From the NCBI GenBank assembly GCA_903813345.2, contig CAIIXF020000001.1:32156556-32220555 (forward strand): a DNA stretch of 64,000 nt, in the 5' to 3' direction. The DNA comes from Owenia fusiformis. Taxonomy: Eukaryota > Annelida > Polychaeta > Sabellida > Oweniidae. Of this stretch, positions 5,261 to 61,400 are shown one piece after another; the stretch's first letter is position 1, and the number at the start of each line of letters is the position of its first letter. The notes beneath the pieces are model-generated. The model was not told the DNA's origin and did no database searches. It worked only from the letters and a program-made list of their open reading frames with translations. A program made the translations under genes and the position numbers.

Positions 5261-7400
5261 AGGGTTTGTATAAAAAACCGGGTACCGGGTAGTAAATCCT
5301 CCATGCTGGGTTCAAACTTGGTACCCGGTCGAAAAAAACCAAAAAACGAAATATACGAATACACAACATAATTAGATCATTAGAAAACGTGTAAGATTTG
5401 TTTTGAATTTACAAAAATGTATGTAACTTCCTTCAAAATTGAGCCAGAAGCTTCAAATAAAAAGCATTTTAAGGCTCTTTTCTTCCTCTATCATCTTGGT
5501 CATATTTCCATTGGTAATGAAGGGGGGGGGTGCGATCGCACCCCCTCCTGGCTACGCCAATGACATTGTAAGACGATTTGAAAAACAAGACAAATCAATC
5601 TTACTCTATTTTCAATAGTTCGTATGCTGGTACGTGAATTGTTTTGATTATGATTTAAATCTGTAAATAGCTATCATTGCTTTAGCAGAGAGGTGACGTG
5701 TGTTAATTTACATGATGCAACGTGTAAGATTTTGATTATTAATCATAATTTAAGTTATCCCAATTTATGACAAAATTTCCACTGAATTGTAAATTGTTAT
5801 GTCTTACAATGTCATAGGCGTAGCCAGGAGAGGGTGCGATGGTGCACCCCCCCCCCATAACCAATGAAAATATGGCCATAACGATAGAGGAAGAAAAGTG
5901 CCTTAAGGTGCTATGGAAGTTAACAGGAAATGACAAAACAGGAAGTGACAATTTTTTTTGCATTTTTAGATATTTTTTGAATAAAGATAACAGAGTTCTG
6001 GTTTGACCTCCAGTCAATTTAACTATTTCCAAATATCATTTATATGACCAGGATCACAATGTGCATGGTCAGAATGACCCTAAACATGATGAAATAACCT
6101 TTTTTAGCCCTTTGAAAGTGTGACTGAAAAAAAGCTAAAAGTAGGAGCGTAGGGAAGGTCACTGAACAGAATCTTTTGAATTTTTCAGAAAATGTGCCCA
6201 ATATATTGCTCTAAATGATACAATCTTTGAAAATTTGATATCATTCATAGAAAAAGAAAAAAAAATGAAAAAACTGATTTGAAAAGCGATCTATTTTCCT
6301 TTTTATGACCGCCATTTTTGTTTTAGACAATTTTCTAAAATTTCAAAGATTGTACTAGTTAGAGCATTATATTGGGCACATTTTCTGAAAAATTCAAAAG
6401 ATTCTGTTCAGTGACCATCCCTACGCTCCTAGTTTTAGCTTTTTTTCAGTCACACTTTCAAAGGGCTAAAAAGGTTATTTCATCATGTTTAGGGTCATTC
6501 TGACCATGCACATTGTGATCCTGGTCATGCAAATGATATCTGGAAATAGTTAAATTGACTGGAGGTCAAACCAGAACTCTGTTATCTTTATTAAAAAAAT
6601 ATCTAAAAATGCAAAAAAAATTGTCACTTCCTGTTTTGTCATTTCCTGTTAACTTCCATAGCACCTTAAAATACAGGCCTGTCAACTGTCCCGCAATCTG
6701 CGTATTTGTCACGCATTTGCTGAAGAATTTGAAGTCACGCCAGTTTTTTTTGCGTGACAGAAAATGTCACGCAAAATACGCATTTTACCTGGTAATTGTC
6801 AAGCAAAAATATTTCTGTAGAAATTTTTTCAAAATATGTTTACGATACGGTAAAAATACGAACGCCGGAAAAAACCGAACGCAATTTGTTCGGATTTGTC
6901 ACGCGAATCCTGTATGTGTCACGCATGTTCATTGGCAATTTTTCGTACCTCCCCCCCCCCCCCCCCCCCCCCCCCCGTTGACGACATCGCGAGCGTAGCG
7001 AGGGCGAAAAATTTGAGGTGTTCAAAGTTTGGCAAAGGTGCTCAAACTTTGGCCAAAGGTGTTTAAAAGTTGGCCAAAGGTGTTCAAAATTTGGACAAAA
7101 GTGTTCAGATTTGGACTTAGGTGTCCAACATTTTGAAGTCACTCATATTAGGTGGTCCCAAGTTGACAGCCCTGAAAATATGCTTTTTATTTGAAGCTTC
7201 TACTGTCTAGCTCAATTTTGAATCATGTTACATACATTTTTGCAAACTCAAAACAAATCTAACACGTTTTCTCATAATCTAATTATGTTATATGTTCGTA
7301 TTTTTCGTTTTTTGGGTACCCGTTTTTTTTGACCGGGTACCAAGTTTGAACCCAGCATGGAGGATTTACTACCCGGTACCCGATTTTTTATACAAACCCT
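5261..7400. mobile_element. Long palindromic foldback element D
   Basis: The arms fold back on each other about a centre near 6290. The ends are AGGGTTTGTATAAAAAA with an adjoining CCGGGTACCGGGTAG (5261 onward), inverted at 7310-7400. Further in, GAAGCTTCAAATAAAAAGCA (left ~5446) pairs with 7180-7200, and GGTCAGAATGACCCTAAACA (left ~6067) pairs with ~6490. The left arm carries an extra segment with inverted GCGTAGCCAGG motifs (about 5520-5850) and the right arm carries element C. A partial copy of the inner arm lies at 59776-60185, so this is a dispersed family. Confidence 0.75.
6674..7174. mobile_element. Element C, CAGGsCTGTCAAC-ended MITE, 6-bp TSD
   Basis: The left end is CAGGCCTGTCAACTGTCCC. 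The right end, inverted, reads CAGGGCTGTCAACTTGGG. Both sides are flanked by AAAATA (6668-6673 and 7175-7180). It interrupts the right arm of palindrome D, whose sequence resumes after it. Inside are a C-rich homopolymer at about 6951-6976 and six imperfect copies of a ~22-bp GGTGTTCAAAATTTGG-like repeat at 7016-7130. The termini resemble those of element B, so B and C are probably one family. Confidence 0.8.
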
Positions 7401-8082
7401 TTCTAGATATCAGCGTCCATTTATTGTAACTCGCGTTTGCTAACATTTGCTCAGTTCTGAGATGAAGGCCACACGGGTAGAAAAAAGGCCAACGTTGGAA
7501 CTATTTGTGACCTAAATCCCTATTTTCGTAATTAAAATGAAAGTTGAACCCTTCCCCTTTATTTTGATACCAAACAACAGCATGCTAGGTACTTAAAATT
7601 AGGTAAACTTTACTCCTCAAAAGTGCAAAAACTTAGCTTCTTATATTAGATAAGATAATCAAAATATAGGGGATTGCAACAATTTCGGAAATTCGCGGAG
7701 GTCAAAGCCACATTTTGCGGGACTTCGCGGGACAATGCGGGACACGCGAATTAGCCTAATTTTGATCAAATTCGCGGGATAATCCCGCCATTTGCGGGAC
7801 ACTTGACAGCTCTGGAAATAAGCTGTTTGTCTGGAGATGGTACAATTTCACACTGGATTCTAGCTTAACGAGAGGGAATTGAGATGGGGCATGTATCTGA
7901 GATGAAAGCCTGTGTTTCAAATAGTAAAATTCCATGTCTATCTCAATTTTTTTGAAAATGGCAGTTAGTACAAAGTTATTCTCACGTGACGACATATACA
8001 ATACTATTAGGCTGAACTGACTGACATATCTTGAATTTTTCACTCACTTGTACAAGGGGTCATCCAAAAGTAAGGTGACTGT

Positions 8083-8285
8083 AGATGGAAGGGAACAATG
8101 AATGTGACATAAATGGTCTTTATATATTTTTTCTATACATATCTGATTTACAGATTTTACGTAATATTACAAAACTGGTGTCCTATAAGCTGGTATCAGC
8201 TGGAAACAATGCATTTAAAAGACATTTAAAGAAAAAGACATTTAAAGATCAATCCTTGTGACACAGAAATAAATTATATTAAACA
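8083..8285. other. Insertion in left inverted-repeat arm
   Basis: This ~200-bp AT-rich stretch separates the terminal 30 bp of the left arm from its continuation at TGTCCGCCATTTCAACATT. The two parts are contiguous in the right arm. No coding potential or recognisable family. Confidence 0.5.
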
Positions 8286-8349
8286 GAACTGTGTCCGCCA
8301 TTTCAACATTTTTAAGCAATTCCCATGAATTTTTTTCAAAATGTGTACT

Positions 8350-9305
8350 ATCTATTTTTACAAGGTAACTCAATATCCTATTCTGACTTATAGGCCTTTT
8401 GGGAATAGGCCCATTGGGTTTTTATTTTGCATGGGCATTTATTTGAAGTCCTCGAAATGAATGACCATGGGCATCAGCCTTTATAACGAGGGAAAATTCC
8501 TTTTTTAAGCCACTGAACATTTATTTCGAGGGATATTATCGATAGTAAAGTTTATACCTGGTCTTTATACTAAATGCAATAGTCTCATAAATATTGACCG
8601 AAAAAGACCTTTTCCCATAAAATTGTCGCTTTATTTCAAATTAACCCTAATTCTTTGTTTGTCATTTCTGTTTCTTTTGACCACTGGTAGCAAGCCAATG
8701 GTGAGGGAAGAAAATGTAAAATAAATGGTGTCATATTTTTATTTCCAAAAAACAGCACGAACAACAGTAATCACTAATTACCATGAATATTAGGTTGTTG
8801 CAATTTTGGTGCATAATCTTGAATCCTTTTCTAAAACATTTGGCCAACACTGGGTGTTAAAGGGTCTCAGAAGTTTTTTTACTTATAGTGTATAATTTGA
8901 CCGTACGCTAATAATTTGACCTCAACTACTGTGATAATACATGTATATATAATTTTTGTTACATTTCCCTTAATTATCCCAACGAACAAAGATGGTAGGG
9001 ATAAAGTGAAGCCCTCCATCTGTCAGTATCTATATATTACAAGAAGTCCGTCTGCCCGTCCGTCTGTCCGGAAGATAACTGAAATACTAGTAGATGGGTT
9101 TGCTTCAAAATTGGTGGAAAGATGTAGGCCCGTAGCCAGGATTTGCCAAAGGGGGGGGGGCATTTTTTTAAAATTTCCAGGGGGGGTTCACATTTGACAA
9201 TTTTGGCAGATTTTGGTAGATGGTAAATATTACATTGTGAAAAGTGTTCGTTGGGATATGTTACTCTGTGGAGTTGCCGTTTTCTAGTTATTGAACTGTT
9301 CCATG
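8350..9305. other. Second insertion in left arm, mixed repeats
   Basis: This stretch is absent from the right arm. It contains a CGTCCGTCTGTCCGGAAGAT motif near 9060 and a fragment beginning GTAGCCAGGATTTGCC with G-runs near 9130, similar to the GCGTAGCC repeat family found elsewhere in the window. No gene seen. Confidence 0.45.
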
Positions 9306-10150
9306 TTTGATGTGTTCATCTTATAGGTGAGGAGTGAAATTCTCAATTGTGCAATTTAAAGGAGATTAATAGTTCAGAGTATATAAGGACGTGTCATACC
9401 TTAATCTCTTCGTTTATATATGCCTTCAGTGAAAAAAAAAAAATTTTAAATCATAATGAGGGACAATGATGTTTTAGACGCCCGTTTCCATGGCAACTGA
9501 ATTTCACCACTGTTAATGAGGACTATTTCTATTATTAGAGATATCTCTGTCATTTTTTATCCGATTTTGATGATATTAACGCCAAATGAAAGCTTAAGGA
9601 ATAAAGTTTATGATTGGTTCAAAATTATGCAAATTAGCTCATTTGCATATCAACTGTGACGTCATAACCATAATTTATATCTAATTATTGATGTTTTTTA
9701 ATACTACATGGAATATAAACTGCTATTTAATTAAACTGTCATGGTAGAGTTATAATATTTCACTATAAAGCAGTTCTAGGATATCATAGCTTCCCAATGA
9801 TATATAATATGAGGCTTATTAGCTTAAATTAATACAATTATGGCATTCTCAAGTTGCATATTCAAAATTCAAAATGTATACAAATTATACCGTAAATGCA
9901 ATGAAAAATGTTAAATGAAAAATATAGTTTCTGTATGAATTTAATTTAATTTTAATGTATGAATTTAATTTGTGGTTTTTAATTTATAATGTAAGTACCA
10001 AATGAGAGCTACTACTCTTGATGCCTGTTTATAAATCATTAAAAATGATCATGATTGAAACACTCGTTTCCATGGCAACCATATTTCTTTAATATTAAAT
10101 ATATTCTTGCTTTTAAGTTGCTTAGTAATCACATTTTAATCATATTGAAA
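9306..10150 (+). repeat. Left long inverted-repeat arm, main body
   Basis: Reverse complement of about 18770-19570. High-identity landmarks include ATATAAGGACGTGTCATACC, CGCCCGTTTCCATGGCAAC, GCAAATTAGCTCATTTGCAT and CATGGCAACCATAT. Short frames inside (and their mirror at 19254-19457) are repeat sequence, not genes. Confidence 0.85.
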
Positions 10151-10766
10151 CCAAGTGAAAGCTAATCAAAAAAGGAATCTTTTTTTGTTTGTTTTTGTTT
10201 TGTTGTTCTGTTGTTGCCAAGACAACAATCAATAATACTGGTGACATCACAAACAAACTGCAAATCATGCATGACTTCAGACTCAGGTTTTTAGGTTCAC
10301 TGGCTGCAGAAGGGAAATGTTTCACCAGGATATTTTTCTTATTAAAAGTAAGCTATTTTGTTCATACTCTTTTGATTAAGTAATTTATTCTTTTTAAAAT
10401 GTTCATTTATAAACTGTTAAAATATAGAGGCCAAAGTATCAAAGGATAATATATTTAAAGAAAATATTGATGAACCAACAACATAGAGTATTTCCCTTTT
10501 AATTTTCTTCTTCCTGTTTGATAGGATTTGTCATACTTTGTTATCAAGTCATAACTAGAATGCCTATTTGAAAGACAACAGAATCTTGTTCTGATGAATC
10601 TTGTTATTACTGATTTATTCATCTTTCAGATCCAACTACGTCCCCAGCACTCCCAATGCCTGTAACCTGGTAACGTATGAATGAAAATGAGTTTAAAATT
10701 CATTAACAATGAAAGATATGACTCGAATCTATAGTAACATTATAATATCCTATTGAAATCGCAAAT
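10151..10766 (+). other. Leader region of the giant ORF
   Basis: AT-rich sequence between the left arm and the ATG at 10767. Short frames only. The bases just before the ATG (ATCGCAAAT) do not resemble a strong animal Kozak context apart from the A at -3. A non-coding 5' exon and intron cannot be excluded. Confidence 0.4.
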
Positions 10767-13700
10767 ATGGACACGAACTATCGCACCCCCTTGAGGGCAA
10801 TGAAGCGATGCCACTATGATTCGCAAGAAAACATACCTCTTAAAAGGAAAAGATTGAGAACACATCTTCAGACTGATTTTTCGAAATGCATATTTTGTCA
10901 AAAAAGAAAATATAAAGGCAGCAGTACCACTCACAGGATTGAAGATGATAAATCTGGCCAAACTATTAAGGATACAGCTGTCATGAGAAATGATGAAGCA
11001 ATGATGTTCAGAGTCTTAGATGTTGATCTTGTCCACAATAAAGCTTGCTATCATAGCAATTGCAGATCAAGTTATGTCGCCAGGAGAAATCTGCAGTTTT
11101 TGGGAAAGAAAGAAGAAGGAGAAGAAAATAATGATATTCACAAAGGTTCCTTTGAAGAACTTTTAAAAGACATTAATCAGCGATTGATGAATGACAGCGA
11201 AGTCTTCAAAATGACTGATCTAGTGAATAAATATCAATCATATCTCCCGGATGAGTCACATAGTTATAGCTCCTCAAATTTATACAGAAAACTAAAGAAA
11301 CACTATGGAGATGAAATAGTTATCCAAACGAGACAAGGCCAAGGTATGACTTCAATAGTCAGAAAAAGAGATGTAGATATTTTGAAAGCATTCAATAATT
11401 TGAAACTAGAAGAATCTGAGGCCATTACAGAAAACACGAAAATGTCAAATCTTCCAGATTCCGCTATTACTGAACACAAGCGAAAGTGTAGTGTTATACA
11501 CGAGGCTGTGGCATTGATAAGAGAAGAAGCACAGATATACACAACCATCGATGTCTTTCCCACTGTAGACCAGATGAAAATGGACAAAGTTGAAGAAAAT
11601 CTACCACCACTTCTTAAAACAATGATGCTCTGGCTTGCTGATCCAAAAGCTCACACTTTGAAATCAAATGATTGCACCAACCATGTATTGAAGCGCAAAG
11701 CTTTAACATTCGCTGAATGTCTCCTTTCAAACATGCGCAAAAGCAACATAACTCCATTTACTCTAGGCCTAGCTGTACAGCTACATCATACTTATGGCAG
11801 GAAGGAACTCATTGATAACCTGCATTCTCATGGATTTTGTGTGAGCTATGATACCTTACGCCGCTTCTCGACTGCTATAGCGCAGCATGAATCAGATCAA
11901 ATGACAGATGGAGTGTATGTCCCACCAAATATAAAACCAGTGTCAGATGGGGGAAATATTATACATGAGGGTGATGACAACATAGATATAAATGCGGAGA
12001 CCATTGATGGAAAAAATTCCTTCCACTCAATGGCCAGGGTAGTATTTCAAGATCAAGATCCAAATGATGCTTTTGAACACATCACAATGAAAATAAATCC
12101 ATCATCCGCAAGAGCCTTGGCTGTTGATGATAAGAAAAAGTCTGATCTGACTTTGCCTTTGCCATATACAAAGCCTATTACCCGACCAAGCCCTCCAAAA
12201 TATCCAGAAGCCAAAGTTTCCATCAGAACAATGATAGAGAAACCAAACTATAATTCACTGTCATCTGATATAGGGTGGATACTGCTACGCATGGGGTGCA
12301 GAGGAGCTTTGCCTATGATAAATACTATTCATGAAGCTCAAATTATCCCTTTGTGGACTGGATACAATCACATGGTTGCAGCAAAGGAACAAACTATCAC
12401 TGCAACTGCTTATCCACCAATCATAGATGCCCCTCCTTCCAATATTGGAACGGTTTTTACGACTATGACAAAAAGCAAGGAAATGATGAATCATCTTGGG
12501 CAGCCGTATACTATACAAACATTTGATCAACAGTTGTATAAGTTAGCCTTACAGGTTAAGTGGGATAAAACAGAGTTTGAAAACAGCATTATTAGACTAG
12601 GTGGCTTTCACATGATGTGTTGTTTTATCTCTTGCATTGGAAAGATATGGGGTGACTCTGGGCTCAGGGATATCCTTGTCGAATCTGGAGTTTACGCAGC
12701 AAATACTGTAGATCAAATGCTACAGGGAAAGCAGTTTAAGAGGGCTTTACGAGGGATAGTACTGACATATGAAGCAGTGATGCAAACATTTCTTCTATCT
12801 TTCATTAAATGGTGTGAGGAAAATGATAATGTATCTGAAATCTGGACTCATATTGATGATTGTGTCAGTGCACATACAGAGGGTGGTGAGGCGATGAAAA
12901 CCTCCAGAGAAGAATTTGAGAAAAGGATTAAAGATAAACTGCTTCCACAACTGAATGAATACAAAGAATGGGGCTGCAACCAATCACCAACATTTTCTTT
13001 TTGGATAATGTTCCTAGAAGCTTGTGAAACCGTTCTTGAAAACCTAAGAGCGGAAAGAGGTGGTGATTGGGATATGCATCTGACAAGTGTGGCTAGGATG
13101 TTACCATACTTTTTTGGAGCAAACAAGACAAATTATGCCAGGTGGTCTCCAATCTACATCCTTGATATGATGAACCTACCAGAAGCTGTTCAAAGTGCAT
13201 TTGAAGAAGGAAAATTTTCCATCCGCAAAACAAGTCATGGGTTTAATGGAATTTGGTCAGATATGGGGACAGAAACCACTGTAATTAAAGATGCAAAGGG
13301 AGATGGGGGCATAGTTGGTCTCACAAGCAAACCACAAACAATGATCAGATGGAGCCTAACTAGGCATATATTCAGCAGGATATCATCTACTTTTAAAGAT
13401 AGATGCAGTGAATCTTCAAATGAGCACATACATCATCCACAAGAGTGCCATTCTAATTTGATGCGTGACGAAGATGATGTCAAGCTAATCCAAGATCATA
13501 TAGAGAACAGAATGACTAATCCATTTGATGTACATAGTCATCCTAATGTTCTCCTTAACATATCAACGGGTGTTCATGCAAGTGAAGATGTACAACGTTC
13601 ACTCTTATCTGTTATCAAATCTGGTTCGATGAAAATGTATCAGTTTGTATCCTCAGCTCTTGAGGAACAATCAACCAATTTCTACCAGACGATAAAACAA

Positions 13701-15275
13701 AACAAACTTGTAACATTTTGTGACATGCACCCAAAATCCAAGGTTAAAACAAGGACAGAGACTGTGGCTGTTGCAATAGGTGCTGAAACCATCTTCCAAA
13801 GAGCATTAACAATTTGCGACAAAAGACCTCATGTTAACATAGATACTATGCTAGAACATCCAATTACCATAACCCCTCCTGCAATATTCCATGATGATGG
13901 AAGCATGAGGAAGAATGTCAAGTCAGACCTTGTCAAGGTTTTGCAAGTCAATCAAACGACTATTTTCCCTTCCTCTGATCCAGATAACACATCATACATA
14001 ATAGATGGAATGTGTGTTATACAGGCCATACAGGGAGACAAATTCAACAACTTTGATCAGATTGGGCAACACTTCCTTAATAAAATCATATGCTGGCTCA
14101 GACTAGCTAGCACTGTGATACTGGTGTTTGATAGGTATGATAAGGCTGACTCTCCAAAGGCTGAAGAGAGAAAAAGGAGAAAAATGGCTGGGCATGAAAA
14201 GATATATCAGGTTAAATCAGAGAGAATGGTACCAGACTGGAGAAAATTTCTAAACGTTGATGACAACAAGGCCTGTATTGTGGACTTCATCACAAAATAT
14301 GTTATGACCACTATACAAAAGCATTTGATTGGGTCACAAAAACTTTACATAGCAGGAGGACTCAAAGAAGAAGGTGAAACATGTGTGATGATTTCGAAAC
14401 AACAGAAAAAGAGTATTGATGATCTAGCATCCTCACACGAAGAAGCTGACACACGAGTAATATTTCACCTCATGAAACTCGACGAAGAGGCAGACCCAGG
14501 AAACCATGAAGTAGTCATTAAATCTCTAGATACTGATGTTCTTGTTCTCGCAGTTTACTATTTCAAAAAACTGATCAACACACAAAAGATATGGATTGAA
14601 ACTGGGAAAGCCACTGGGACAACTAACAACCACAGATTTATTCCTATTCATTGTATTGTTGACCAAAGGGGGCACATGTTCTGTAGTCTACTACCAATGT
14701 TGCATGCCATGTCAGGATGTGACAGTACATCATCTTTCTATGGTCATGGCAAAAAGGCTTTTGTAAAAACTATTGAAAAGGTAGGATGTGATAGCTTCGG
14801 TGGGATGAAGACTCTTGAAAAGGAAAACTTCATCGATGATGCAAGAAAAATAGTGGGGAAAATGTATGATCCCAAACAACACGATCCATTAAAACTAGAC
14901 AATCTAGGAAAACTACGCGCTCATCTGTTGAAAACCTCAGTAAAATACAAATCCCTACTCAAATTACCACCAAGTGAACCTGCATTTCGTCAACATGCAC
15001 TGAGAGCCTTGTGGCAGAGTTTGCAATGGACACAATCACACAAATCATATCCTGAACTTCCAGAAAGAATAGGGCATGGGTGGTCATTGGTGGAAGGGGA
15101 TATTGTAACTACAAAGTTTGAAGGCCCCTCAGCTTCAGAAGTCATTGAAGGATTTCTTTGCTCTTGCAAAGGGAAGGCCATATGCCTTAAAAATTGTGAA
15201 TGTGCATCTAGTGGATGCACAATTCTATGCCCATGCCTCGGAGAAGCAGCTATTTGTAAAAATGTATATTCTTAA
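10767..15275 (+). CDS. 1,502-aa element-encoded protein: N-terminal zinc motif, FEN1/XPG-like nuclease, CXC-like tail
   Basis: A single intronless ORF, ATG to TAA. Residues 26-31 (KRKRLR) look like a nuclear localisation signal. C41-x2-C44 with H96-x2-C99 (CYHSNCRSSY) looks like a zinc-binding module. The centre holds TFDQQLYKLA (D587) and LGGFHMM (612-617), a pair I recall from many 'uncharacterized' predicted proteins of cnidarians and molluscs; I cannot assign its fold. From about 1070 on the order of motifs is that of a FEN1/XPG 5' nuclease: IIDGM (D1080), LVFDRY (D1122) with a basic stretch after it, HEEADTR (E1226, D1228), SLDTDVLVLA (D1255, D1257), and HAMSGCDSTSSFYGHGKKA (D1319), the last matching the GCDY/helix-two-turn-helix segment. 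Residues 1465-1497 are cysteine rich (CSCKGKAICLKNCEC...CPC), CXC-like. The intact frame suggests recent activity. The mobility role is inferred from the flanking inverted repeats. Confidence 0.85.
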   Translation: MDTNYRTPLRAMKRCHYDSQENIPLKRKRLRTHLQTDFSKCIFCQKRKYKGSSTTHRIEDDKSGQTIKDTAVMRNDEAMMFRVLDVDLVHNKACYHSNCRSSYVARRNLQFLGKKEEGEENNDIHKGSFEELLKDINQRLMNDSEVFKMTDLVNKYQSYLPDESHSYSSSNLYRKLKKHYGDEIVIQTRQGQGMTSIVRKRDVDILKAFNNLKLEESEAITENTKMSNLPDSAITEHKRKCSVIHEAVALIREEAQIYTTIDVFPTVDQMKMDKVEENLPPLLKTMMLWLADPKAHTLKSNDCTNHVLKRKALTFAECLLSNMRKSNITPFTLGLAVQLHHTYGRKELIDNLHSHGFCVSYDTLRRFSTAIAQHESDQMTDGVYVPPNIKPVSDGGNIIHEGDDNIDINAETIDGKNSFHSMARVVFQDQDPNDAFEHITMKINPSSARALAVDDKKKSDLTLPLPYTKPITRPSPPKYPEAKVSIRTMIEKPNYNSLSSDIGWILLRMGCRGALPMINTIHEAQIIPLWTGYNHMVAAKEQTITATAYPPIIDAPPSNIGTVFTTMTKSKEMMNHLGQPYTIQTFDQQLYKLALQVKWDKTEFENSIIRLGGFHMMCCFISCIGKIWGDSGLRDILVESGVYAANTVDQMLQGKQFKRALRGIVLTYEAVMQTFLLSFIKWCEENDNVSEIWTHIDDCVSAHTEGGEAMKTSREEFEKRIKDKLLPQLNEYKEWGCNQSPTFSFWIMFLEACETVLENLRAERGGDWDMHLTSVARMLPYFFGANKTNYARWSPIYILDMMNLPEAVQSAFEEGKFSIRKTSHGFNGIWSDMGTETTVIKDAKGDGGIVGLTSKPQTMIRWSLTRHIFSRISSTFKDRCSESSNEHIHHPQECHSNLMRDEDDVKLIQDHIENRMTNPFDVHSHPNVLLNISTGVHASEDVQRSLLSVIKSGSMKMYQFVSSALEEQSTNFYQTIKQNKLVTFCDMHPKSKVKTRTETVAVAIGAETIFQRALTICDKRPHVNIDTMLEHPITITPPAIFHDDGSMRKNVKSDLVKVLQVNQTTIFPSSDPDNTSYIIDGMCVIQAIQGDKFNNFDQIGQHFLNKIICWLRLASTVILVFDRYDKADSPKAEERKRRKMAGHEKIYQVKSERMVPDWRKFLNVDDNKACIVDFITKYVMTTIQKHLIGSQKLYIAGGLKEEGETCVMISKQQKKSIDDLASSHEEADTRVIFHLMKLDEEADPGNHEVVIKSLDTDVLVLAVYYFKKLINTQKIWIETGKATGTTNNHRFIPIHCIVDQRGHMFCSLLPMLHAMSGCDSTSSFYGHGKKAFVKTIEKVGCDSFGGMKTLEKENFIDDARKIVGKMYDPKQHDPLKLDNLGKLRAHLLKTSVKYKSLLKLPPSEPAFRQHALRALWQSLQWTQSHKSYPELPERIGHGWSLVEGDIVTTKFEGPSASEVIEGFLCSCKGKAICLKNCECASSGCTILCPCLGEAAICKNVYS

Positions 15276-15344
15276 ATTCAGAGATGAAATATTTATTTGG
15301 ACACTGGTCAAATACTGAGTGCCTACACGATCTGTCTATGATAG

Positions 15345-18300
15345 AAAATTTGCCAATGCCTGAAGATATAACTGCTACCAGCTTTACCTATGAATTCAGT
15401 GCCAATGCCTGAAGACATAACTGCCACCATCTTACCTATGAATTCAGTGCCAATGCCTGAAGACATAACCGCTACCTTTTCTTCTTGTGAATTCAGTGCC
15501 AATGCCTGAAAACATAACTGCTACCAGCTTTACTTATGAGTTCAGTGCCAATGCCTGAAGACATAACTGCTACTAGCTTTACCTATGAGTTCAGTGCCAA
15601 TGCCTGAAGACATAACTGCCACCATCTTTACCTATGAATTCAGTGCCAATGCCTGAAGACATAATCGCTACCGTTTCTACTTGTGAATTCAGTGCCAATG
15701 CCTGAAGACATAAATGCCACCATCTTTACCTATGAATTCAGTGCCAATGCCTGAAGAAATAACTGCTACCATCTCTACTTATGAATTCAGTGCCAATGCC
15801 TGAAGACATAACTGCTATCATCTCTACTTATGAGTTCAGTGCCAATACCTGAAGACATAACTGCTACCAGCTTTACCTATGAGTTCAGTGCCAATGCCTG
15901 AAGACATAACTGCCACCATCTTTACCTATGAATTCAGTGCCAATGCCTGAAGACATAATCGCTACCGTCTCTACTTGTGAATTCAGTGCCAATGCCTGAA
16001 GACATAAATGCCACCATCTTTACCTATGAATTCAGTGCCAATGCCTGAGGAAATAACTGCTACCATCTCTACTTATGAATTCAGTGCCAATGCCTGAAGA
16101 CATAACTGCTACCATCTCTACTTATGAATTCAGTGCCAATGCCTGAAGACATAACTGCCACCATCTTTACCTATGAATTCAGTGCCAATGCCTGAAGACA
16201 TAACTGCTACCGTCTCTACTTGTGAATTCAGTGCCAATGCCTGAAGACATAAATGCCACCATATTTACCTATGAATTCAGTGCCAATGCCTGAAGACATA
16301 ACTGCTACCATCTCTACTTATGAATTCAGTGCCAATGCCTGAAGACATAACTGCTACCATCTCTACTTATGAATTCAGTGCCAATGCCTGAAGACATAAC
16401 TGCTATCATCTCTACTTATGAGTTCAGTGCCAATGCCTGAAGACATAACTGCTACCAGCTTTACCTATGAGTTCAGTGCCAATGCCTGAAGACATAACTG
16501 CCACCATCTTTACCTATGAATTCAGTGCCAATGCCTGAAGACATAATCGCTACCGTCTCTACTTGTGAATTCAGTGCCAATGCCTGAAGACATAAATGCC
16601 ACCATCTTTACCTATGAATTCAGTGCCAATGCCTGAAGACATAACTGCTACCGTCTCTACTTGTGAATTCAGTGCCAATGCCTGAAGACATAAATGCCAC
16701 CATATTTACCTACGAATTCAGTGCCAATGCCTGAAGACATAACTGCTACCATCTCTACTTATGAATTCAGTGCCAATGCCTGAAGACATAACTGCTACCA
16801 TCTCTACTTATGAATTCAGTGCCAATGCCTGAAGACATAACTGCTATCATCTCTACTTATGAGTTCAGTGCCAATGCCTGAAGACATAACTGCTACCAGC
16901 TTTACCTATGAGTTCAGTGCCAATGCCTGAAGACATAACTGCCACCATCTTTACCTATGAATTCAGTGCCAATGCCTGAAGACATAATCGCTACCGTCTC
17001 TACTTGTGAATTCAGTGCCAATGCCTGAAGACATAAATGCCACCATCTTTACCTATGAATTCAGTGCCAATGCCTGAGGAAATAACTGCTACCATCTCTA
17101 CTTATGAATTCAGTGCCAATGCCTGAAGACATAACTGCTACCATCTCTACTTATGAATTCAGTGCCAATGCCTGAAGACATAACTGCCACCATCTTTACC
17201 TATGAATTCAGTGCCAATGCCTGAAGACATAACTGCTACCGTCTCTACTTGTGAATTCAGTGCCAATGCCTGAAGACATAAATGCCACCATATTTACCTA
17301 TGAATTCAGTGCCAATGCCTGAAGACATAACTGCTACCATCTCTACTTATGAATTCAGTGCCAATGCCTGAAGACATAACTGCTACCATCTCTACTTATG
17401 AATTCAGTGCCAATGCCTGAAGACATAACTGCCACCAGCTTTACCTATGAGTTCAGTGCCAATGCCTGAAGACATAACTGCCACCATCTTTACCTATGAA
17501 TTCAGTGCCAATGCCTGAAGACATAATCGCTACCGTCTCTACTTGTGAATTCAGTGCCAATGCCTGAAGACATAAATGCCACCATCTTTACCTATGAATT
17601 CAGTGCCAATGCCTGAAGAAATAACTGCTACCATCTCTACTTATGAATTCAGTGCCAATGCCTGAAGGCATAACTCTTACCATCTCTACTTATGAATTCA
17701 GTGCCAATGCCTGAAGACATAACTGCCACCATCTTTACCTATGAATTTAGTGCCAATGCCTGAAGACATAACCGCTACCGTCTCTACTTGTGAATTCAGT
17801 GCCAATGCCTGAAGACATAAATGCCACCATATTTACCTATGAATTCAGTGCCAAAGCCTGAAGACATAACCGCTACCGTCTCTACTTGTGAATTCAGTGC
17901 CAATGCCTGAAGACATAAATGCCACCATATTTACCTATGAATTCAGTGCCAATGCCTGAAGACATAACTGCTACCATCTCTACTTATGAATTCAGTGCCA
18001 ATGCCTGAAGACATAACTGCCACCATCTTTACCTATGAATTCAGTGCCAATGCCTGAAGACATAACCGCTACCCTCTCTACTTGTGAATTCAGTGCCAAT
18101 GCCTGAAGACATAAATGCCACCATCTTTACCTATGAATTCAGTGCCAATGCCTGAAGACATAACTGCTACCATCTCTACTTATGAATTCAGTGCCAATGC
18201 CTGAAGACATAACTGACACCATCTTTCAATTTGAATTCAGTGCCAATCCCTGAAGACATAACTACTACCATGTTTAACTATGAATTCAGTGCCACTGCCT

Positions 18301-18590
18301 GAAGACATAACTACTACCATGTTTACCTATGAATTCAGTGCCATTGCCTGAAAACATAACTACTACCATCTTACCTATGAATTCAGTGCCAATGCCTGAA
18401 GACATAACTGCCACCATCTTTACCTATGAATTCAGTGCCAATGCCTGAAGACATAACCGCTACCGTCTCTACTTGTGAATTCAGTGCCAATGCCTGAAGA
18501 CATAAATGCCACCATCTTTACCTATGATTTCAGTGCCAATGCCTGAAGACATAACTGCTACCACCTTTACTTAGCCTGAACACATAACCA
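15345..18590 (+). repeat. 49-bp satellite, about 66 copies, higher-order structure
   Basis: The monomer contains the constant core GAATTCAGTGCCAATGCCTG then AAGACATAA, followed by a ~20-base variable part ending in TTACTTAT or TTACCTAT. Period is exactly 49: the marker TGCTATCATC recurs at 15813, 16401 and 16842, i.e. 12 and 9 monomers apart. Variant monomers follow each other in a repeated order, so there is a higher-order unit of about 9-12 monomers. The array starts ~70 bp after the stop codon of the giant ORF and ends ~180 bp before the right inverted arm. Because 49 is not a multiple of three and stops occur, it is not coding. Confidence 0.95.
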
Positions 18591-18769
18591 CACATAACTG
18601 AAGACATGACTTCCAAGTTGATGTAAAACAAAACATTATAGTGAAAGAAAAAGCAAAAATTCAGAAATATAATTGTTCAAGGGATAATATAGTTCTAAGA
18701 TGATAAAACCTGATCAGGAAAACAATTTTAAATGACTTGAAAGAACAGATAACTTTTTCCGTGTTCACA

Positions 18770-19744
18770 TGTTTGAAATCGGCCTGAACGATATAAGAGA
18801 TAATAAATGATTATATATACTCTATAACAGGAACAATCTTTTTGTTATCTAATATGGTTGCCATGGTAACCGATATATCACTAACACACATATCTGCACA
18901 AGTTATCATTGAATGTATATAGGGTAAACTAGTAGCTTTCATTTAGTACAGTATTTATTATACTTTCATAATAAAGATTAGATTTTGAAACTCCATTTCA
19001 AGTTCCCTGTTTCATTATAAAGGTACATTTATCAGCACTTAGATTTTCAAATGAACAACTCCAGTAGACTACATTTATACTTTTCATAGTTATTATGCCT
19101 CATATTATATATCATAATGGAGCTATGATGTTAAATATTTATACTTTAATAAGATATCGTAAGTTAACCTCAATGATTTAATAAAATAATAGTTTGTATT
19201 GTTTAAAGTATTAAAAACCCATCCATTATTGAACAAAAAATTGGGTTATGACGTCACAGTTGATATGCAAATGAGCTAATTTGCATAATTTTGAACCAAT
19301 CATAAACTTTGTTCCTTAAGCTTTCATTTGGCGTTAATATCATCAAAATCGGATAAAAAATGACAGAGATATCTCTAATAATAGAAATAGTCCTCATTAA
19401 CAGTGGTGAAATTCGGTTGCCATGGAAACGGGCGTCTAAAACATCATTGTCCCTCATTATGATTTAAAATATATTTTTTTTCACTGAAGGCATATATAAA
19501 CGAAGAGATTAAGGTATGACACGTCCTTATATACTCTGAACTATTAATCTCCTCAAAATCTCATTTTCACTCCTCGTCTATTACTACAGCAACCACGAAA
19601 CCATTAATACAGAATTAGATACTTTGGGTTATATTGTAATGTATATATATATAAATGGATATAACACATTCTCTGAGAATTTCATGAGAATTAAAGAATG
19701 TTGAAATGGCAGACACAGCCACCTTTCTTTTGGATCACCCCTTG
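18770..19744 (-). repeat. Right long inverted-repeat arm of the giant-ORF element
   Basis: A continuous copy of the left arm in reverse orientation, ending GGATCACCCCTTG. It preserves pieces that are separated on the left, which is how the left insertions were recognised. Confidence 0.85.
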
Positions 19745-19888: not shown

Positions 19889-19996
19889 CACTGTCATTCA
19901 CTGGTGAAGCAGATGGCCAGGTTTGAGGCTGGTACTCACAATGAAACCTGGCAATGTGAAGGATATTACAAAAGCATTCACACATTTCTCAATCAG
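19889..19996 (+). CDS. Penultimate coding exon of a plus-strand host gene (family unknown)
   Basis: The exon is bounded by TATATTTACAG on the left and CAG-GTGAGC on the right, 108 bp, phase 0 to 0. It encodes HCHSLVKQMARFEAGT, then ETWQCEGYYKSIHTFLNQ, a dense mix of charged and aromatic residues unlike the surrounding repeats. It joins in frame to the exon at 20894. Upstream exons are not visible. They must lie beyond the 11.7-kb element or left of the window. I do not recognise the family. Confidence 0.7.
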
Positions 19997-43400: not shown

Positions 43401-46400
43401 ACAGGGCCCAAGTCTCTATTGGTGTTCTTGTGGGTCTTCAAATAACCATCTGTTTCCCTCTGGGGCTGGCCAGCTCCCTTACCCCATGGGTCAAACATCC
43501 CACCCTGTAACTACATAAGGCAATAAGCATGCTAAAACAGACTGTCATCTAAAGATACCTAAAATAATTCAAATTCTAGAATTTGAAATAACACTGTTTT
43601 CTCCATAACCTGGATATATTTATCTTTCAGAACTGAATCAGTTCACAATATTCATAGAAAGTCTGTGTAGGCACAATCTGGATGAAAATGTTCTTATATA
43701 ATAGACTGCGCGGTCATGCAAAGATTTGGAAACAACATCTTCTTGGTATGATTCAGCAAACAATGCACTGAGTTCAGGGCTAAAGTAAAGTGAGACTTAT
43801 ATATGAGATAAATCCTGCACCAAGAGCTTCTATAGAATAGAATAGCCATACATTTGTTGTAACATGAACAAATTAAACCTTTTTACAGAAAATACTGGTG
43901 GTAGTTGTTCTGACATTAAAAGATTTGATGTTAAAATTAAAATACACATAATGCTCTGATATTTCAGGTTTCTGGAAATGGTCACTTACCCGAGTATCTG
44001 ACAGCTCCAAACTCTTTGTTAAACGTGGATCTGAAATATACAATTGATATCATATATAATATATATGTATCTATTAATGAAAAGATCACTATAGAGGAAT
44101 AAACAAAAGATATGAATCATGGTAAACATGTGATCAATTACAAGACTGCTTAATTTACATACAAAACACAAGAAATCTTAGAAAGTCTTCATTCTGACAC
44201 TCATAGTATCTTTCTGTTTCACATGAAACATGCTCTGATATTATGAGGCATATTCTGTGATCTGAGCACAACTGTCAATAACAGGGTTCGTACACCTTTT
44301 TCAAAATGAAATTCCCTGACATTTCCCTGACATTTCCAGGCAAAAAAGAAAATTTCCAGATCTAGTTTTGCTTGTTTTAGGCCTCCCTAAAAAGTCGCGA
44401 ACAACTATCGTTTAAAAGACAAGAATTATTATGAAACATTTTGGGCGTCTCCTTTAGTAACATTTCCTTAACTTTGACTTAGCTTTACTTCTACAGGCCG
44501 TCTTATTCACAACTTGATATATTATGTTTTTCATTTTACATATTTTACGTTGCATAAGGCCAAAGGTAAACATACATGTACAGGGGCGTAGCAAGCAAAC
44601 GTCAAGGGGATGCAAGTTTCGGGATTTGCATCATGCGAGCGAAGGAAACCCAAGGGGGATTAGATGAACCCCCAGAAATTCACATTGTACCAGGTCGTTC
44701 AATAAGTTCTCATAATTTTGCTCTCATTTTAAGAGTTTTTTATATTTTTCCATGAAAACTTCACAGACGATGCAGAATGTATCTGTGTAACAACTCTGCA
44801 AGGATTATGTATTAATTCTAATGGTTGTGGAAATGGCGGTTGCTATAGTAACGTCAAAAATCGGTAGGCGGGGCAACTTTATTTGATCGTAAAATCCATG
44901 GATGTAGTTAGATTTCATCTTGAAATGTCATATGTTTTATCTGAAAGATTTGCAACCATAGAAACAGGTTTTGACATCAGTGTGAAAGATGCAACTTTTC
45001 TGAGTATAGTTATTACTGTGACATCACATAAAAAGGTATGACATCACAGATAAGGTTTCAATAGAGAGACCCAAGATGGCAGCTGACTGTGGTCTTGTGA
45101 AAAGTCAAGATGAAATTCAAATTCAAATCCGTAGTGTGATAAGATTTTGTGTGTTATCCAAGAAATCAAGAGGAGAAACAATAAAAGCAGTTCAAGATAT
45201 TTATGGAAAGGAGTTAATGAGCACACCTACCATATACCAATGGTATCAAAGGTTTGGTTCAGAGGGAAGAAAATCTGTGATGGATGAAAAACGGACTGGC
45301 AGACCGGTAAAAGTCACCAACCCAAAGGCTGTTGAAAGAGTTAAGACAGTTCTAGATGATGATCGCCGCATCTCTGTACGGGAACTTAGTGAGAATGTGA
45401 ACATTAGTATAGGTAGAACACACTTCATTCTGAAAGAGAAGCTTAAAATGAACCTCATGTGTGCTAAATGGGTGCCAAAGGAGTTAACTAGTGACCAGAG
45501 AGCCCGCAGAGTTGAGGTTTCCCAAGAATTTCTAAGACGATACCAAGATGAAGGGGATAGTTTTCTTCAACGAATTATCACATGCGACGAGGTGTACGTC
45601 AGCTATTATGAGCCCCTTGGGAAGAGAGCATCAAGTGGTTGGAGAACTAAGAACTCACCTACTCCCATTTCAACCCTGGCAAAACTGACCAAAAATGACG
45701 GCAAGGTGATGTTCATTGTGTTTTTGGATAGCTCTGGGGTGCTGCTTACGCATGCAATTCCTGATGGTCAGAGAATAAACAAGGACTATTATGCAATGGT
45801 AAGCTTATTCATTATTAATAAATTAATCAATATAAGAGTAAAAACATTAAATCAAATCAAATTTAAAATCAGATTTGAACTATAAAAATGGTTAAGTACA
45901 AATGTTAAAGGCATTAGTATCCTATCCTACTGACTATTTCAGGTTCTCAAGAGGCATCTCAAACGGGCCTTCTCAAAGAAACGCCCCCTCCTAGAGTTGG
46001 CGACAAGAATATTTCATCAGGATAATGCCCCGTGTCACCGGGCAGAACTTGTACTGAACACCATAGGAGAACTCGGAATGGAAGTTCTCCCACAGGCACC
46101 ATATTCACCTGATGAAGCCCCATGCGACTTTGGCGTGTTTGGCCGAATGAAAGATGAGCTGAGAGGTTTTCGATTTGCATCGACAGAAGATTTGCAGAAT
46201 GCAGTCCAAAATGCTCTCAGAGCTAGATTTCCTGATGGATTCCATAAAATCTTCCAGGATTGGGTAGAACGTCATCGAAAGTGTGTCGCATCCAATGGAC
46301 ATTATTTTGAGCATTTAAAGTAGGAATAGAAACATTTACCCCATACTATTTCATGGGATAAATGGGACTACATGACATTAAAACACTTGTTACTCTCCAC

Positions 46401-49400
46401 AATGTTGAACTGAATTATATGCCACTATGACGTCAAATAATCTGCCCCGCCTACCCATTTTTCATGTTACTATAACAACCGCCATTTTCACGACCATTAG
46501 AATTAAAACTTAATTTTTGCAGGGTTGTTACACAGATACATTCTGCATCGTCTGTGAAATTTTCATGGAAAAATATAAAAAACTCTTAAAATGAGAGCAA
46601 AATTATGAGAACTTATTGAACGACCTGGTATATGGTGCATTCTATCCATTTCAAACTATAAAATGTTAATAATAATAATAATGTTTATAATTTGCAAACC
46701 AAATGAAACTTGAAGTTGTTATCTAGCCATGGATCATGAATTATACACTTTTACTTGAATAAAATTTGTCAACAGCGTCCCACTTAAACATGTGGTGTGC
46801 CATGAGAAATAAGTATAATTTGCAAAATGTTCCTGAACTGATACGGCCTAGTGATTGCCAAGCTAATATTCCTGATGCAAACCCCAGTGAATATAGGGTA
46901 TAGAAAGGTCTCTAAGAGATTGTATGAAGGCATCCAATCTAGAAAATTGCTCAACTAAAGCTGGCAATTAAGACAGGTTGAAAACAAAAATTTAGCTAAC
47001 ATTTCATTGATACTGCTATATCAGCAATGCGACTAAAACTAAAATATATCATCAAATATTACATTGCATTATTACTAAGAACCCCTAGCACTATATAACT
47101 ACAAAATTTGGGGTATGTAGGTTGGAAAATAGAAAAAGTTGCAGTGTCTTGAAAAAAGTGGCGTTTTATTGGCCCACCCTGTATATAGTGCATTCTAAGC
47201 ATTTCAAACTATAAATTTTGTGATGAATCCAAATGACAACTGAAACTTCAAAATTTTGAGCAACTCCCTTGAGGGGCAAGTCCCACCTGATGAAACATAT
47301 TTTATTGAATACTGATCATTATGAACATTATATGACAGCAATAATCTGGCATTGCTATTGTCTTCTCCCTTTTGGGAAAATCTATACCAAAACATGATAT
47401 CAAATTAAAATTCCTTCTTAAGTAGCGTCACAATAAGGCACAGACCTACCAACTCAAATAATCAGTATTTGTGTTATCAGGAACCATATTTCTTTAAATC
47501 AAAAAATTTAATAATAAAAAAATAGTGGCATTTTCAATTTAGAGACCATCTTGAATATTTCTTCTTGAGCAGAGGTCATTTATCCCTAAGGCATCGCCAT
47601 ATGAAGCTTGAGCTAAAGTAAAACACTTGGTTCATCTTTACATGAAGAAAGGTTCTTATTTTGATTCTGGGTTATTTCCTTCTCTTCCCATGAAATTTTG
47701 GCCCTATAAAACCAAAGTATAAACAAATTTGAACCAAATCTGTCAACTGATATTTGAGTTATCGCCCTGACAGATGAATAGACTTACGTATGATCGGACT
47801 GCCGAACAGACAGCTTCTCAATATATAGTTTTATACTGTAAAGACAAGTTCCCAGAATTATTTTTGCTTTTCACCTCCCACCATCCTCAGGTTAACCCCT
47901 CAACAAAACATGAAACATATACCACTAATTTTGATCCTAGGACTAACTTTCAAGCATAATTGTATTGAACCATCATATATGTTCTTTATTGTTTGGTTTC
48001 ATTATAATGTTCATACTGTTCTTACAAATAGAATGTGATTCAATCAACTCTAATGAAAGATTTCTAATTTGTGAAAACAACTAAATGTTTAGTTAGATTT
48101 TGGACTTCATTGATATCCTGTCATAGTCCTAAAATGTATTTTACTGGAACATTAATTTTCAACACTGATACAAAATTCCCTGACATTTCCCTGACACATC
48201 TACTGTTTCAAAATTCCCTGACATTTTTGGCCCTTTTTGACCCAATTTTAAAATTCACTGACATTTCCAGCACCTGGAAAAATAAATCAACTTCCCTGAC
48301 ATTTCCAGGTGTGTACGAACCCTGAATAAGTGTGATAACCATCATGTAATTATTTACCTTAATACATTACATAATAGGCATTGTATTTAACGTCAGATCT
48401 TAAAACAGGCACATTTACACAAGCTTTATCCTCAATTTTGGGCTCTCCTAGATCGCCAAATTTAACATCATGGCATCTCAGGGCTGAGAAGAAATGAGAT
48501 GTCATGGTTTATCATGATGGAAAGTCTTAGAATACAGGTCTGAGAGGCACTAGTTAAAGGCAGAATCAGATCTATGGGGGTGACAAAATTACAAGCAACA
48601 TCAATTGACGTACCAATCTATTCCTTACAATCTTAAATACAATATCTCCCAAAAGATTCATGATATGTTATAAATTGATGAAGTTATAATAGATTAAAAG
48701 TGCAAAAATGGGTGAAAAATGTTTAAATTCTCCAAAATAATAAGAATGGTAACCATTCTTTAAGAAAAATAATACATTATTGTAAAAATCCTCAGTTTTC
48801 CTGAAATAAAGTGTGCACTTAAGGGATTTTTAGAAAATAGACATGAAAGGGAATGACATAAGCCAGAAATATTCTAAAATTGAAACAATTTTTTTTTAGG
48901 CTGCTTGCTAGATCTGATTCTCTCTTTAAAAGATGGAGTAAGAATAGAAATGCAATGAAATGAGAAATTAAAGAAGACAAGATATGGTAGAAAATAATGG
49001 AAAAAGGAGAAAAACTCAACGAAACTGTAAATGCCAATAACATAATCACATTACTAAATCATGATATAAACATGATAAATGGTTAAATGAAAAATGCTTA
49101 ACAATAACAAAATGTAGAGGATGCATATTTTCATTATATGCAGTAATGATGTCAAGAAAGAATTTTTATGCTACAATTTCTTATAAACTAGACATTACCT
49201 TAAGTACTGACATTAGACATACAAGCACCTTGAGGTGTAATTATTATTCTAGGCATGGCATTCCAGCTATTTACAAGAGGCCTTTACCTTTAAATTTGTT
49301 TATACTAGACATACCATAAGGTTCATTTAAAACCATTCATATTAAACATACCTTGGGGTTCATTCTTACGTAATTGTGCTATGTCATTGGTAAGTGTGAT

Positions 49401-58400: not shown

Positions 58401-61400
58401 TTCACTTTGAGTACCATATAGCCATGAAGTCAATATCCTATGGCTACAATATCCACACAGTCTAACCAACAAAACTCACACAAAGTTGATAAATCGATGA
58501 ACCACAGGTTTTCTAAAACCCTATGATTAATCCTGAATCTAAATTCTAATTAATTCTAAATTACAGGTAGAAGTCAGCAGATGTGAACATATACTTTAGG
58601 AGCACACTATACCTAGAAAGCTTAAGCAACAAAGTACACAAAAAATTAACTTTGGCTTCTCAATTGTACCTCTGAGAGTTCCGTCAAATGTTGTGTTCTG
58701 GGGACCAGGAATAAGTCCTACTAAACTTTTCCAATGATTATCACGAAGTTTTTGACATCTTAAAGTGACTGGATCATCGCCATAATATCGCTAGTAGAAG
58801 TAAATAAAGAATCAACAGGTTACTGGTTGTAGTTGCCATCTGACTAGAGTTAAGCCTTTTGTAATCTTATAAAACAACATTGTATGAATTTATACTTATA
58901 TTTAGTATTGTGTTCCCTTTACATATTACATCACATAACATTATTCCACAATACAAGTATTTTCATGGCATTAGCTAGGAATAAAAATTAATGTCTGATA
59001 TATAATTCTCAAGATGTATTTCATGAATCTCTTTCAAGAACTGTTTTAAGAAATATAATAAAGTCAAACAACCCACCATGCAAAGTTTTTTAATTTTTAA
59101 TATGACCATGGTAGATTAATGCTCTCATAAGATTATGCTTTGAATTTAAATAACCTTTATGAACAGGATCAATGATTTATTATATAACATTAATGTAAAT
59201 ACATTTTCTATATTTCTAATAGGCTGATTTAAACATAAAATCCTATATTTTTTCAAAAAATATTTTACTTACTTAAATTACCTAATGCATATGTAATCTA
59301 AGTTGTAAAGCAATCTTTATTAATAATATCAAACTAATTGAAGATTTTGAACTTGGAAGAAAGTGATAGAGGAACTGATTCAAAAAGAGGTAGGCTAATT
59401 AACAACATAGAATTAACAGAAATAGAATAAACAGGTAAAAGTGCAAGAATCTAGAGGCCTTATGCAATAACATGCATGTACTGGCATCCCAAATATCCAA
59501 CAACACATATAAGTTGAGTCAGATCAGTCAATATAATGGCTCAGTTCACAAAAATGAGCATTCGAGTTTTATCAAGCTATCAATTGCAAGGCTATCTAGT
59601 TGAAACTGTACAATACTGAATCTAATAAGCAACATTTAGAATTAATTAGAAACCTACCGTTCTAACCATTTCTAATTTTCTTATATCATATTTTACTCTG
59701 TTTGCCCTGAAATAAACAACTGAAACTTTTACGACATAATTCTATGATATTTGGAAATTTTAGAAACTTGTCTGAAACAAAAATGGCGGTCATAAAAAGG
59801 AAAATAGATCGCTTTTCAAAGATTGCATCATTTAGAGCAATATATTGGGCACATTTTCTGAAAAATTCAAAAGATTCTGTTCAGTGACCTTTCCTTACTA
59901 TATTTGCACATAGCCATCTTTAGATAGATCTCTCAGGAGATAGCTTTGTGTAAACTAAGTAAACCTTTCCCACCTCCTACTTTTAGCTATTTTTCAGTCA
60001 CATTTTCAGAGTGCTGAAAGGTTATTTCATCATGTTTAGGGTCATTCTGACCATGAACATTGTGATCCTGGACCTGTAAATGGTATGTGGAACTAGTTGA
60101 ATTGACTGGAGGTCAAAACAGAACTCTGTTATCTTTGTTCAAAAAATGTCTAAAAATGCAAAAGTTTTTGTCAATTCCTGTTTTGTATTACACATTAAAA
60201 TAACGTTTTTGACGTAGCATTGCATTACTTCTCTCCTTTCACACATCACTGACAGGCATAGTCTTTAATTCATGCTACTGCGATTTGCATGGCAAGTCAC
60301 ATGCTATCTATTGCAAGACTTACGCCTGCCACAACCGTCGCCATGTTAATCAGTGTTTTTTAAGTAGCGCAAGGATGCTGTCATGACCGTGGTAGTGTTA
60401 TCGTGTAAGCCTGGTATAACCGTGACAGGCTGGTATAACCGTGACAATGCTGTATTCTATTGCAAGGCCTGTCATGACCCTGGAAGTGTTATCGTGGAAG
60501 CCTGGCGCGACCGTAGCCTTTATTGTGGTTTATAAGCGAATGTGAATATTAATGTATAGTAGTAATTTTGATTTTGACATGATTAAGGTAGTTAAACACC
60601 ATGATCATAGTATTAAACTGTTTAATTGTAATGGGGATCACTTAAAATTGTTAAGGATATTCCTGGCATTAATGTCATACATATTTACTAGTCATTGCAA
60701 TACATCATAACGGTCATAGTAGAACTAAGGCTAAATCTCTACATTACCACCCTCATACCTGGCCTTGCAATACTATATTACATTGTCACGGTCATACCAG
60801 GCTTTGCGATCCCATAATACATTGTCATGGTCATGCCAGGTTTTCAAATACACATTGTCACGGTCAATTATAGCAATCATAAATTTCTACATTACCACTC
60901 TCATACCCGAACTTGGAATACTATATCACATTGCCATGGCGGTCATACCAAGCCTTGCAATACTATATTACATTGCCATGGTCATGCCAGGCTTTGCAAT
61001 ACACATTGTCACGGTTATAGCAGTCCTAATCGTAAATTTCTACATTACCACTCTCATACCTGAACTTGCAATACTATATTACATTGTCACGGTCATGCCA
61101 GGCCTTGCAGTACTATATTACATTGTTACGGTCATACCAAGCCTTGCAGAACTATATTACATTGTCACGGTCATGGCAGGCATTGCAATATAATACAGCA
61201 TTGTCGCGGTTATACCAGGCTTTCACGATAACATTACCACGGTCATGGCAGGATCCTTGCGCTACTTAAAAAACACTGAATAACATGGTGACGGTTACGC
61301 CAGGTGTTAGTCTTGCAACAGATAGGGTCTCTGGCAAGTAGACATAAAGTATACCTCCACCACTGGATCTACTTCCGGTTACCCCCATAAATGTGAGGTT

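Follow-up and report, generated by a model that had tools for sequence, protein, structure and literature searches.

What kind of mobile element is built around a single giant reading frame with a flap-nuclease-like domain, and does it call for a transposon class of its own? The question is raised by an 11.7-kb inverted-repeat element (8053-19744) in a 64,000-nucleotide (nt) stretch of the Owenia fusiformis genome (contig CAIIXF020000001.1, positions 32,156,556 to 32,220,555), the whole of which was analysed and is called the window here. We consider it likely that the element is an Academ DNA transposon of the AcademX type, whose one protein fuses a DDE transposase (amino acids (aa) ~300-880) to a FEN/EXO1-type 5' nuclease (aa ~1052-1435).

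Two catalytic folds in one reading frame

The open reading frame (ORF) at 10767-15275 (+ strand) runs through 1,502 codons free of internal stops, so that the giant intact ORF of the first-pass annotation stands. Its product was divided as follows:

10767..15275, + strand: transposase-nuclease fusion ORF, 1,502 codons
10887..11063, + strand: N-terminal Cys/His module (aa 41-99; C-x2-C ... H-x2-C), putatively zinc binding
11664..13796, + strand: central domain as modelled (aa 300-1010), DDE-type transposase; D404, D587, D832/E836
13920..15071, + strand: FEN/EXO1/XPG/XRN-like 5' nuclease domain (aa 1052-1435)
15150..15272, + strand: C-terminal Cys-rich tail (aa 1462-1502)

The first reading of this DNA had taken the flap nuclease for the only clear catalytic domain, with the caveat that the central domain might be a cryptic DDE transposase. 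It is the caveat that was borne out: the modelled fold and the conservation of its acids mark the central domain as a predicted DDE-type transposase. In a fold comparison that covered the families listed by VIA-align, the central domain was matched to the P element and hAT (Hermes) transposases, with 6-9% of the aligned residues identical, and its acids are invariant. P element and hAT transposases are not known to carry a 5' nuclease domain.

The FEN1/XPG-like call on the distal part of the protein was upheld by fold and by the metal-binding acids at 1080, 1122, 1226, 1228, 1255, 1257 and 1319, which place aa 1052-1435 in the FEN/XPG superfamily; these acids presumably correspond one-to-one to FEN1 residues. 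Identity to FEN1, EXO1, XPG and XRN was 8-16% in the VIA rows shown, and the window nuclease differs from these enzymes by its fusion to a transposase. At the N-terminus the Cys/His module, whose H96 is kept in 26 of the 27 rows that cover it, may bind zinc. The window protein has one such module, while relatives such as P0001 have two, both matching it. The C-terminal tail is, by eye, presumably CXC-like, and the source of relative P0071 calls that protein “Tesmin/TSO1-like CXC domain-containing”.

Sequence searches of the PDB gave no match to the ORF and weak matches alone to a profile of alignment A1 (best E 0.21, with no nuclease or transposase among them), and Foldseek found nothing significant for the central domain in a viral structure library. 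A Pfam scan of the ORF reported DUF6589 (PF20231) alone, at aa 601-812, with an E of 1e-4 and 21.6 bits, under the cut-off of 27; the same family was matched at E <=0.1 in three of 12 members of alignment A1, and among the relatives P0016 passed its cut-off at 35 bits while P0082 and P0084 reached 26.4.

Three protein searches, two of which scored only the candidates with most shared words, yielded 94 distinct relatives. An organism name was attached to 26 of them and 25 of these are animal (the other 68 carry no organism): Mytilus edulis (11), M. coruscus (6), Pinctada imbricata (2), and one each from Anneissia japonica, Trichogramma kaykai, Exaiptasia diaphana, Phaedon cochleariae, Brassicogethes aeneus and Frankliniella fusca. 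The remaining named one, the close relative P0006, bears a bacterial-bin label (Sedimenticola sp.) and may be host DNA within a symbiont assembly. In a tree built from 27 transposase domains, the window protein had no supported sister.

Inverted arms, termini and paired palindromes

Outside the ORF, the element consists of two inverted arms with matching parts and, on the left, additional DNA:

8053..8077: proposed left terminus, CAAGGGGTCATCC..., partner 19720-19744
8083..8287: extra left-arm stretch between ACTGT copies (8078-8082, 8288-8292), absent from the right arm
8288..8360: left outer arm, second block, partner 19650-19719
8976..9257: short stretch bounded by inverted repeats, ATCCCAACGAACA ... 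TGTTCGTTGGGAT, within the ~0.9-kb left-arm extra DNA
9354..9824: left inner arm, partner 19088-19559
9484..9497: palindrome GTTTCCATGGCAAC, outer copy, left arm, partner 19416-19429
10066..10079: palindrome GTTTCCATGGCAAC, inner copy, left arm, counterpart 18857-18870
18857..18870: palindrome GTTGCCATGGTAAC, inner copy, right arm
19088..19559: right inner arm, partner 9354-9824
19416..19429: palindrome GTTGCCATGGAAAC, outer copy, right arm
19650..19719: right outer arm, second block, partner 8288-8360
19720..19744: proposed right terminus, ...GGATCACCCCTTG, partner 8053-8077

The termini are complementary at 90% across 30 nt (8053-8082 and 19715-19744) and at 92% across the outermost 25 nt. 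With up to three mismatches allowed, the terminal 18-mer CAAGGGGTSATCCAAAAG had two matches in the window, exactly the two ends (the shuffle mean was 0.11, and two of 100 shuffles also reached two matches), which agrees with the matching ends described before. Elsewhere the pattern occurred in 16 genome-contig stretches, all bacterial by title, and in one viral contig, which we took as chance. Against 3000 random pairs drawn from the rest of the window, none equalled the pair score of the outer 60 nt, and none that of the next block (8288-8397 and 19591-19720).

Further in, the inner arms (9354-9824 and 19088-19559) align over 475 columns at 87.6% identity (E 7.6e-167). Identity rises to 95% in a core of 346 nt, but the stretch immediately outside this core is weak, its score being equalled by 8 of 3000 random pairs. 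The outer block (8289-8360 and 19650-19718) has 76% identity over 72 columns and includes two blocks, one of 26 nt (88%) and one of 44 nt (73%), and a weak collinear match carries on inward as far as ~10.2 kb and ~18.6 kb. The earlier description of arms aligning in order over ~1 kb was thus fair, with strong likeness limited to ~0.5 kb. The blocks keep the same order on both sides and follow one another in the right arm, whereas the left arm has two extra stretches without a right-arm counterpart, of ~205 nt and ~0.9 kb (roughly 8.4-9.3 kb). The former (8083-8287) is a probable later insertion into the left arm; within the latter, 8976-9257, whose 13-bp inverted ends (8976 and 9245) are each single-copy in the window, is a probable nested insertion with the look of a miniature element. 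The arms are most simply read as one long terminal inverted repeat, with insertions that entered its left copy later.

That the locus is a host gene arisen by domestication, or a relic no longer mobile, flanked by repeats through chance, would fit the want of a target duplication and of a second copy in the viral and genome contig scans (both below), but we regard it as highly improbable in view of i) the E value of the inverted arms; ii) the one unbroken 1,502-codon ORF; and iii) the numerous relatives spread over many contigs.

Both arms also carry the palindrome GTTNCCATGGNAAC, exact copies of which number four in the 64 kb; all four lie inside the arms in a symmetric, matching order. With up to two mismatches there were 11 matches (shuffle mean 2.46; none of 100 shuffles attained 11), and six of the seven additional inexact matches fall outside the arms. 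The palindrome is embedded in a longer unit with two diverged copies per arm (in the left arm a direct repeat of 51 nt with 73% identity, in the right arm 20 nt with 85%); the extended left-arm alignment of this unit scores 78.5, as two of 1000 random pairs do or exceed. These CCATGG-centred palindromes are candidate transposase-binding sites. Alternatively, since the palindrome resembles an RFX X-box and TGACGTCA, present in both arm cores (at 9657 and 19249), is CRE-like, both motifs could have a promoter role.

Probable placement within Academ and proposed working

The X in AcademX presumably stands for XPG, the nuclease type attributed to this group, and the window element encodes such a nuclease. 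It also has terminal inverted repeats, although to which element the outermost pair belongs depends on the nested arrangement considered below. The filing as probable AcademX follows from this agreement in make-up: a DDE transposase, a 5' nuclease, terminal inverted repeats, and named relatives that are animal and largely mollusc. AcademX is likewise an animal DNA transposon with terminal inverted repeats that combines a DDE transposase with a nuclease, its nuclease and its 3-4 bp duplications being described in PMC10045372. AcademH, treated in the same paper, resembles the window element in joining an Academ transposase to an accessory DNA enzyme, but this enzyme is a helicase and its duplications are of 9-10 bp as against 3-4 bp for AcademX, a difference tied there to “helicase and nuclease”; no helicase appeared in our Pfam scan of the ORF, which carries a 5' nuclease instead. 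Academ is strongly amplified in bivalves, where 100 curated consensus elements average 5,565 bp according to PMC10294476, compared with 11.7 kb for the window element, which is enlarged by a 3.2-kb satellite and insertions.

Several points weigh against this assignment: i) the AcademX name derives from domain make-up and a single passage of a paper; ii) the catalytic sites were picked partly for being conserved in a first alignment; iii) the alignment of the central domain to the P element has a root-mean-square deviation of 6.0 over 363 residues; iv) Foldseek found nothing significant for the central domain in the PDB, the best transposase being ISCth4 (rank 2, E 1.8); v) AcademX is reported to make 3-4 bp duplications, whereas the flanks of 8053 and 19744 (left ..CACTTGTA, right AATTTATA..) hold no direct duplication of 2-11 bp, the best partial match being 5/8; vi) among the inner candidate ends (9280-9369 with 19540-19624), no pair that matches over its terminal 8 nt is also flanked by a duplication of 3-4 bp; and vii) no second copy was seen in scans with alignment A1 of viral contigs (41 pattern hits) and genome contigs (74), none of which was confirmed as a relative. 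The boundaries are therefore proposed rather than proven, with no duplication at either the outer or the candidate inner ends, although a duplication at one old insertion site may have been lost since.

The missing duplication, together with the uneven identity of the arms, which runs from 76-92% in the outer blocks through a weak zone to 95% in the 346-nt core, and a TA directly ahead of the left end, would also suit a nested arrangement, in which an Academ-like inner part (~9.28-9.36 kb to 19.55-19.62 kb) sits inside an older unrelated inverted-repeat element that owns the 8053 and 19744 ends; from the look of the CAAGGGGTCATCCAAAAGTAAGG ends and the TA before 8053, this outer element would presumably be of mariner type. 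We hold this possible but clearly the less likely arrangement: the right-arm blocks follow one another, weak homology and the palindrome pairs carry the arms further inward in unchanged order, the inner candidate ends likewise lack a 3-4 bp duplication with eight matching terminal bases, and the right flank is AA, not TA. A mariner-like element does lie elsewhere in the window; its ends differ, and it was rejected as the source of the outer ones.

More doubtful still is a superfamily of its own, adjacent to Academ yet not part of it, whose P-element/hAT-like DDE domain would have gained a FEN-like nuclease independently. The sub-threshold DUF6589 match of the window protein, the filing by domain make-up and the unseen target-site duplication leave some room for it, but the domain make-up agrees with the AcademX description in PMC10045372, and PMC10294476 reports Academ to be abundant in bivalves.

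Returning to AcademX, the earlier suggestion of a transposon class of its own was not supported, as a DDE transposase with an accessory nuclease is already in print, both for AcademX and for Kolobok lineages, whose transposase is accompanied by an accessory nuclease (PMC10045372 and PMC9587614). KolobokE and KolobokP resemble the window element in pairing a DDD/E transposase with a nuclease, but theirs are lambda-exonuclease-like or His-Me finger enzymes, according to PMC9587614, while the window nuclease is FEN-like. A literature search on transposases with an XPG nuclease found no transposon paper, as judged by title and abstract start. The element probably opens no new class and is a fresh example of a named family.

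Both folds with their conserved acids, the collinear arms and the symmetric palindromes are observed; as to how the element might work, we infer mobility, DNA binding and a split of tasks between the two catalytic domains. The protein would bind subterminal sites in the arms, for which the paired palindromes are candidates, and its Cys-rich ends probably contact DNA. The DDE domain would then cut the transferred 3' ends and link these to the target. Trimming of the 5' strand would fall to the nuclease domain, either by removing 5' flaps after strand transfer or by cutting the non-transferred strand at excision. In Tn7, TnsA and TnsB divide labour between the strands. Only tentatively do we suggest an obligate role for the FEN-like domain, as a second catalytic partner cutting or trimming the non-transferred 5' strand, with the 3' strand left to the DDE domain; if true, the protein would be a single-chain eukaryotic counterpart of TnsA/TnsB, built on a DNA-repair flap nuclease. 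As an intact-looking single-ORF case of a P-element/hAT-like DDE domain joined to an EXO1/FEN1-like 5' nuclease, with acids kept together in many relatives, such a protein could be used to test the part of the nuclease in transposition, and whether the nuclease sets the 3-4 bp duplication length, as proposed for AcademX versus AcademH in PMC10045372.

Satellite and other features of the window

Between the ORF and the right arm lies the satellite noted earlier as 66 copies of a 49-bp unit, which we measured at 65.8 copies with 89% matches (15351-18570). Adjacent units are 87.5% alike versus 79.7% for units 30 apart, a gradient that would fit local tandem amplification. Placed downstream of the stop codon, the array is a passenger, dispensable for the protein. 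A supposed unit copy upstream of the ORF (10650s) was rejected, its 10-nt match scoring 20 against a background of 19 (95%) and 23 (99%).

Just right of the element, 19889-19996 is a 36-codon exon-like stretch with splice-like borders (tttacag | ... cag | gtgagc), for which a PDB sequence search gave no match. To the left, 5903-6669 forms a near-perfect inverted structure (778 columns, 90% to its own reverse) with relatives at 59751-60186. The mariner-like element occupies 44677-46641 with inverted ends of 210 nt at 91%; its ORF at 45076-45885 has Mos1-type HTH and Transposase_1 domains, and a second frame at 45934-46323 is seemingly the remainder of the transposase.
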